From: Bacteroidota bacterium
Lineage (GTDB): Bacteria; Bacteroidota; Bacteroidia; Flavobacteriales; Flavobacteriaceae
Direction of reading: 5' to 3'
Assembly: GCA_024280635.1 (NCBI GenBank)
Contig: JAJRPS010000002.1
Location: 1 to 64,000 of the forward strand
DNA length: 64,000 nt
Part shown: one piece after another, positions 20,972 through 61,494 of the stretch
How positions within the stretch are numbered: the stretch's first letter is position 1
Layout of the letters: each line of letters opens with the position of its first letter
Program-made: the position numbers and the translations under genes
Notes under the pieces: generated by a model
The model's database searches: none
What the model was told of the DNA's origin: nothing
The model's input: only the letters and a program-made list of their open reading frames with translations

Positions 20972-21445
20972 TTAAGGTAAAATCTCCTTAAGTTTATCAT
21001 AAACTAAATGACTTTCCCATCCTCTATACAACAGATAATCGGCTATTTTTTTACGTTTTTTGTACACATTACTTTCGGAGGCAGCATCCATTTTTTTGAT
21101 GGCTAAATAATGGAGTTTTTCAGTATAATCCACTTCATCTATTTCTTTTAAGGCTGTTTTGATGTTATAGGCAGAAATATTACGGAATTTTAATTCGCGC
21201 ACAATTCTATTTTTCCCCCAATGCTTAATATTAAATTTTCCACGGGCATAACTTTTTGCGAAGCGTTCTTCATTTAAAAAATTATGTTGTACCAAATGCT
21301 GTATAATATCATCAATTGCAATAGGTATCATTTGCATTTCTTTCAGTTTAGCATTTACTTCTTTATAACATCTGTCTTGATATACACAATAATGTTCTAA
21401 TTTCCGTTTGGCTTCAGTTACCGTATATGTTTTGTTTGATTTCAG
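20972..21445 (-). CDS. recX: RecX regulatory protein, non-canonical start
   Basis: RecX binds and restrains RecA filaments. The frame reads KTYTVTEAKRKLEHYCVYQDRCYKEV, then FLNEERFAKSYARGKFNIKHWGKNRIVRELKFR, and ends with WESHLVYDKLKEIL, the full three-helix-repeat family. The first ATG in frame (21337) would remove the conserved first helical repeat. Upstream of it the frame stays open to a stop at 21469-21467 but contains no ATG, GTG or TTG. Candidates are CTG 21445 (157 residues, the normal length) or ATC 21448. The promoter at 21481-21488 places the transcript start just upstream. Either a rare start codon is used or the start has mutated. Confidence 0.85.
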   Translation of the reverse strand: MKSNKTYTVTEAKRKLEHYCVYQDRCYKEVNAKLKEMQMIPIAIDDIIQHLVQHNFLNEERFAKSYARGKFNIKHWGKNRIVRELKFRNISAYNIKTALKEIDEVDYTEKLHYLAIKKMDAASESNVYKKRKKIADYLLYRGWESHLVYDKLKEILP

Positions 21446-21455
21446 GATATGAAAG

Positions 21456-21486
21456 TATTTGTAATGTTATAGATACATTACAAATA
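21456..21486. promoter_or_regulatory. Perfect 12-bp inverted repeat over the recX promoter
   Basis: Arms TATTTGTAATGT (21456-21467) and ACATTACAAATA (21475-21486) are separated by 7 bases. The right arm overlaps the minus-strand -7 element, so a bound dimeric repressor would block recX transcription; alternatively it forms a hairpin at the 5' end of the mRNA. The core ATGT-N7-ACAT recalls PadR-type operators (ATGT-N8-ACAT) but is one base shorter. Confidence 0.55.
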
Positions 21487-21488: not shown

Positions 21489-21530
21489 GGATATTATCTA
21501 TTCTACTTACAGAATTTATTGATAAAGCTA

Positions 21531-21790
21531 TTACAAGATTTTTAATGTTATTTTTATACCTACTTTAAGGCTTTTGTGACAGGTGACACAGTTGTTTAAA
21601 AGACTATTGAGCGCTTTCTGTGTTTGTTTTGGATTAAAATTAGTTTCAGTATTTTTTGCTAATTCATCAAACATACTGTGTGTACTCATTCCTAATGCTT
21701 TGAAACCAGCAGGTAAAGATTTCACTAACCCTTTAGGGGTATGATCTACTACTGAACCTTCTGATTTTTTGCGGCATCAATAATTTTCTC
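21531..21790 (-). pseudogene. Remnant of a cytochrome c'-like gene
   Basis: Only the C-terminal part survives. The frame reads KSEGSVVDHTPKGLVKSLPAGF, FKALGMSTHSMFDELAKN and LNNCVTCHKS, with a CxxCH haem-binding motif close to the end, as in helical cytochrome c' proteins. Upstream, a poly-A run of six (21765-21770, T on the plus strand) shifts the frame; seven would join it to EKIIDAAK. Before that point the sequence runs into the end of the TonB receptor gene with no signal peptide or start. The gene is thus 5'-truncated and frameshifted. The remaining frame of about 64 codons could be translated from GTG but would not be exported. Confidence 0.65.
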
Positions 21791-61401: not shown

Positions 61402-61415
61402 AAGAATTGTTTTTG

Positions 61416-61423
61416 TAATTTTG
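61416..61423 (+). promoter_or_regulatory. -7 promoter element (TAATTTTG) of the thioredoxin-like gene
   Basis: A perfect TAnnTTTG match, 71 bp before the start at 61495. Confidence 0.5.
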
Positions 61424-61494
61424 GCATATAAATTGCTACTATTACAAAAAACGAAGTTTAATTTAATAATTACCCCGTTTTACGGGTATAAAAT

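Follow-up and report, generated by a model that had tools for sequence, protein, structure and literature searches.

RecX acts on RecA, the co-protease of the SOS response, and as for the promoters from which genes are transcribed in Flavobacterium, their -33 element has the consensus TTG. In Flavobacterium psychrophilum, the second promoter element, a TAnnTTTG box, spans -12 to -5 (PMC9723704). Non-canonical LexA operators have been described in Bacteroidota, namely GGA-N5-TCC, CTAA-N5-TTAG and TTAC-AAATT-GTAA (PMC8565304); these are palindromic repressor sites at the promoters of DNA-repair genes in the same phylum as the genome studied here, and recX is likewise a DNA-repair gene. The text of that paper does not mention recX, and no recX operator in Bacteroidetes is given in the available passages of an SOS review.

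Herein we describe a perfect inverted repeat before recX in a marine flavobacterium, within a window of 64,000 nucleotides (the whole stretch of DNA that was analysed). The 150 bp that precede recX contain no exact instance of the dyads GGA-N5-TCC, CTAA-N5-TTAG or TTAC-N5-GTAA. Moreover, the ATGT and ACAT arms of the repeat are separated by N7 with none of these motifs inside, and its identification as a known Bacteroidota LexA operator was therefore rejected; the closest thing there to a LexA motif is a one-mismatch AGATAATATCC that adjoins the repeat. The canonical LexA model TIGR00498, which covers the canonical form only, has no match in this genome (G000).

The inverted repeat and the predicted recX promoter

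The repeat occupies 21456-21486 and has the form TATTTGTAATGT-N7-ACATTACAAATA, where the 12-bp arms (21456-21467 and 21475-21486) are complementary at 12/12 positions and the 7-nt spacer is TATAGAT; as a dyad it is assigned to neither strand. The sequence check thus found the perfect 12-bp inverted repeat of the preliminary description to be exact in both sequence and coordinates. To judge its level by chance, a Markov model was built on the window's intergenic DNA (27% G+C), under which repeats with perfect 12-bp arms and a loop of 3-10 are expected at 6.0 per Mb of intergenic-like DNA, that is, 0.046 in the 7.6 kb of intergenic DNA in the window and about 1.4 in the intergenic DNA of the whole genome; for Markov sequences of the whole window the expectation is 0.025. 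In fact the window holds nine such repeats, eight of which are strong repeats resembling ordinary terminators just beyond gene ends, while the one at recX is the sole case at a gene's 5' end. The recX repeat is unusual within the window (roughly 1 in 20) and not extraordinary genome-wide. Elsewhere in the window, 61410-61450 forms an inverted repeat that is imperfect over 17 bp, starts with TTTTTGTAAT and encloses a spacer of 7 nt; a peptide transporter gene lies on one side and a thioredoxin-like gene on the other.

Downstream of the repeat, recX lies on the minus strand at 20972-21445 and is recognised by its matches to Pfam RecX_HTH2 and RecX_HTH3. Its start would be the CTG at 21445-21443 (minus strand), the only candidate that the reading frame has at the expected place, where it lacks ATG, GTG and TTG; three congeners have TTG at the position of this CTG. 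As for the promoter, a predicted -7 box, TATATTTG at 21488-21481 (minus strand), fits the TAnnTTTG consensus of a Flavobacteriaceae sigma-A promoter and overlaps the upstream arm of the repeat. Considering that such a box spans -12 to -5, the predicted transcription start would fall near 21476 (minus strand), so that the repeat would extend from about -10 to +21 and the leader would measure about 31 nt, a length typical of the described flavobacterial sigma-A promoters (PMC9723704). However, in place of the TTG of the -33 element in Flavobacterium, a CTG is found before recX, at 21510-21512 (minus strand) and 21 nt before the -7 box, which makes for a weak element. The preliminary description had placed the repeat before recX, over the -7 element and the likely transcription start, and this placement is borne out, with a promoter that is plausible as predicted from its -7 box.

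Uniqueness of the repeat and the recX neighbourhood

The gene recX itself is widespread, being present in 54 of the 59 relatives and in 218 of the 221 sampled family genomes. The preliminary description had proposed two checks of the repeat, its conservation upstream of recX in relatives and its recurrence in the genome, and both turned out negative. Upstream of recX, the repeat was found in 0 of 112 available relatives (3 congeners and 109 others), and the best match to its 24 arm bases in these upstream regions is 12-17, equal to that in shuffled sequence; it was also found in 0 of 80 named genomes, of which a MAG with the label Kordia sp. NORP58 is the closest. The nearest relatives compared are the three congeners, whose RecX identity is 72-75% and which have nothing comparable before recX. 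Moreover, the gene neighbourhood differs: in the congeners bioB and other genes lie beside recX, while in this genome their place is taken by genes for a glycosylase and a TonB receptor, along with a cytochrome c remnant interrupted by a stop codon, so that the recX upstream region, as judged by gene order, is rearranged with respect to the congeners. Since the congeners are distant and the upstream region is rearranged, the conservation test is weaker for recent sites and does not reach recent or species-level conservation. The cytochrome c remnant, at 21531-21780 (minus strand), has an internal TGA and was not matched in the congeners; in another family (G039), a homologue is uninterrupted.

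As for recurrence, the repeat is unique in the genome: the search of the 1.91-Mb assembly, which is 80% complete so that a second site could be absent from the data, found no second copy of its 20-base core at up to three mismatches. The 14-base core GTAATGT-N7-ACATTAC, allowing up to two mismatches, has 12 sites in the genome compared with 18 for the reversed control, and 9 of the 11 sites other than the repeat are within coding sequence, the remaining 2 being intergenic. Summed over 59 genomes, approximate copies number 45 compared with 55 for the control and hence show no excess; a scan of viral contigs for the exact repeat gave no match. A variable-gap search with TTGTAAT-N0-25-ATTACAA did return 8 sites compared with 1 in the control, and this excess was rejected as a shared motif because most of the other sites are coding and without the same arms. 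Altogether, for an operator of a multi-site regulon, no further copies were found before other genes, and the looser core did not rise above the control.

Given that the genome has no other copy and that none precedes recX in the relatives, a private or chance sequence is the most likely reading. More specifically, we give about an even chance to the repeat being a lineage-private or chance (neutral) dyad without a dedicated regulator, and the absence of function is what we infer here. The repeat would then be a private dyad in the fast-changing, A+T-rich part of the rearranged region upstream of recX, and the overlapping TATATTTG box would drive the transcription of recX, with the leader given above and CTG as the start of translation. 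The repeat is real as sequence, and as a functional element it is at most a candidate. It follows as a general lesson that recurrence and conservation need to be checked wherever a single promoter bears a striking dyad.

Operator, hairpin and other readings of the repeat

A second reading, which is possible though on the whole doubtful, takes the repeat as a lineage-specific operator, where a dimeric repressor, bound to the dyad and thereby covering -7 box and start site, would block the transcription of recX. Its extent from about -10 to +21 is a classic place for a repressor operator, and its arms are perfect over 12 bp, with a chance of about 0.05 in the window alone; both points count against a neutral dyad. 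In addition, the recX promoters of another clade have a conserved palindrome of their own. On the other hand, no regulator gene is next to recX, and the operator-like role suggested in the preliminary description finds no support by its own two checks, leaving a weak lead to an XRE regulator. As an operator, the repeat would count among the early examples in Bacteroidota of a control dedicated to recX.

This lead gives a specific version of the operator reading, which we consider unlikely: a small XRE regulator (67 aa) encoded at 6085-6285 on contig C73 of this genome would bind inverted TGTAATGT half-sites on the recX promoter, possibly as two dimers on opposite DNA faces, so that recX in this lineage would be under an XRE/Cro regulator also controlling its own membrane-protein operon. 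The genome has just two intergenic near-matches to GTAATGT-N7-ACATTAC, and one of these precedes, by about 40 bp, the operon in which this 67-aa XRE/HTH_3 regulator is encoded together with a membrane protein (G000:C73:6085-6795). The site, ATGTAATGTTTGTTTTACATTTG, is two mismatches from the core and identical in the congener G001, and before the operons of XRE relatives the half-site TGTAAWGT occurs 18 times compared with 0.9 expected and TGTAA-N8-TTACA 8 times compared with 0.02 expected. The identity in G001 and the recurring half-sites suggest that the site is probably the regulator's own autoregulatory operator. A site like TGTAAAGT-N2-ACTTTACA is strongly conserved before XRE/membrane-protein operons across Flavobacteriales (G000:C73:6085-6795; L260-L280).

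The operator of small XRE/Cro (HTH_3) regulators in Flavobacteriales, as inferred here, shares the half-site TGTAATGT with the repeat, which carries it twice in inverted orientation, and it is present in the same genome and in G001. In G000 exact matches to TGTAATGTNTNTNTNACA are confined to the recX site and the XRE site, and at recX the 18-mer TGTAATGTATCTATAACA (21465-21482, minus strand) shares 14 of its 18 positions with TGTAATGTTTGTTTTACA, the operator of the XRE operon, a suggestive likeness to be taken as a lead only. However, the half-sites are 7 bp apart in the repeat compared with 2 bp in the XRE operators, i.e. 5 bp further, so that the layout at recX is TGTAA-N13-TTACA instead of the 18-bp TGTAA-N8-TTACA. 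With the motif derived from the XRE relatives, TGTAATGTATCTATAACA has a weak score of 9.3, lower than those of 11 other places in the window, while the site of the XRE operon itself reaches 18.9. Near-matches to the core are no more frequent in the genome than those to the control, and in G001, where the regulator is present, recX lacks such a site. Moreover, it was a search with the repeat itself that led to the XRE site; the match is thus circular in part, and serves as a lead rather than as evidence of binding.

A reading at the RNA level is improbable: on read-through transcripts the repeat would form a hairpin that stops 10 nt short of the start codon, and this would lower the translation of recX. 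The full repeat folds at -10.7 kcal/mol (z = -6.2), the upstream gene is on the same strand, which would allow read-through for example from the TonB receptor gene, and structure near the start is reported to lower initiation in Flavobacterium johnsoniae (PMC6847099). However, of the upstream arm a transcript from the predicted start would keep only about 2 bases, and the stretch 21444-21475 is left unfolded, at 0 kcal/mol; hence a hairpin at the 5' end of the mRNA, as the preliminary description had suggested, is unlikely, and according to the folding model it could act only on read-through transcripts starting further upstream. In addition, there is no Rfam match up to E = 1 and no conservation upstream of recX in the relatives.

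Two further readings are very improbable. Lying downstream of the same-strand genes for cytochrome c and the TonB receptor, the repeat could serve one or the other of their transcription units as an intrinsic terminator, but the stem is A+T-rich with a T-run on neither strand, and the terminator scan found none at the repeat, while the window's eight other strong repeats do look like terminators. Tyrosine-recombinase core sites have a similar geometry of arms and spacer, and with its 12-bp inverted arms and a 7-bp overlap, the repeat could by the same token be a recombinase core site left as the scar of a rearrangement beside recX, whose neighbourhood does differ from that of the congeners; against this, a second genome copy at up to three mismatches and an exact copy in the viral contigs are both missing, and no integrase gene was recognised among the ORFs listed around recX.

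A palindrome before recX in a related clade

A different palindrome, TTAACAAATTGTTA, is conserved before recX in Psychroserpens, Bizionia, Xanthomarina and their relatives, extending over many genera, and it is absent from this genome. As a positive control in the same data, TAAC-N5-GTTA was found before recX in 11 upstream regions compared with 0.55 expected, and it lies at -26 to -38 relative to recX in 23 of 80 named loci. The detection of this palindrome in the same data means that the conservation test could have shown an operator. It precedes the same gene as the repeat of the window and at a similar distance from the start codon, whereas its sequence is unrelated and it is kept across genera. 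For the regulation of recX in Flavobacteriaceae, TTAACAAATTGTTA is a better candidate than the repeat.

In its clade-wide form, TTATTAACAAATTGTTA, the palindrome lies 26-38 bp before recX and is nearly unique per genome. It is carried by L010, L012, L014, L018, L021, L090, L104, L108, L113 and L127 together with 23 of L152-L231, among which are Psychroserpens, Bizionia, Xanthomarina, Hanstruepera, Oceanihabitans and others, and it is similar to TTAC-AAATT-GTAA, a non-canonical LexA operator verified in Elizabethkingia. Besides recX, the same palindrome, as TTAACAA-WW-TGTTA, also precedes a gene for an ABC-transporter ATPase (judged LolD-like by eye) in L247, L253 and L255, which is possibly a second target.
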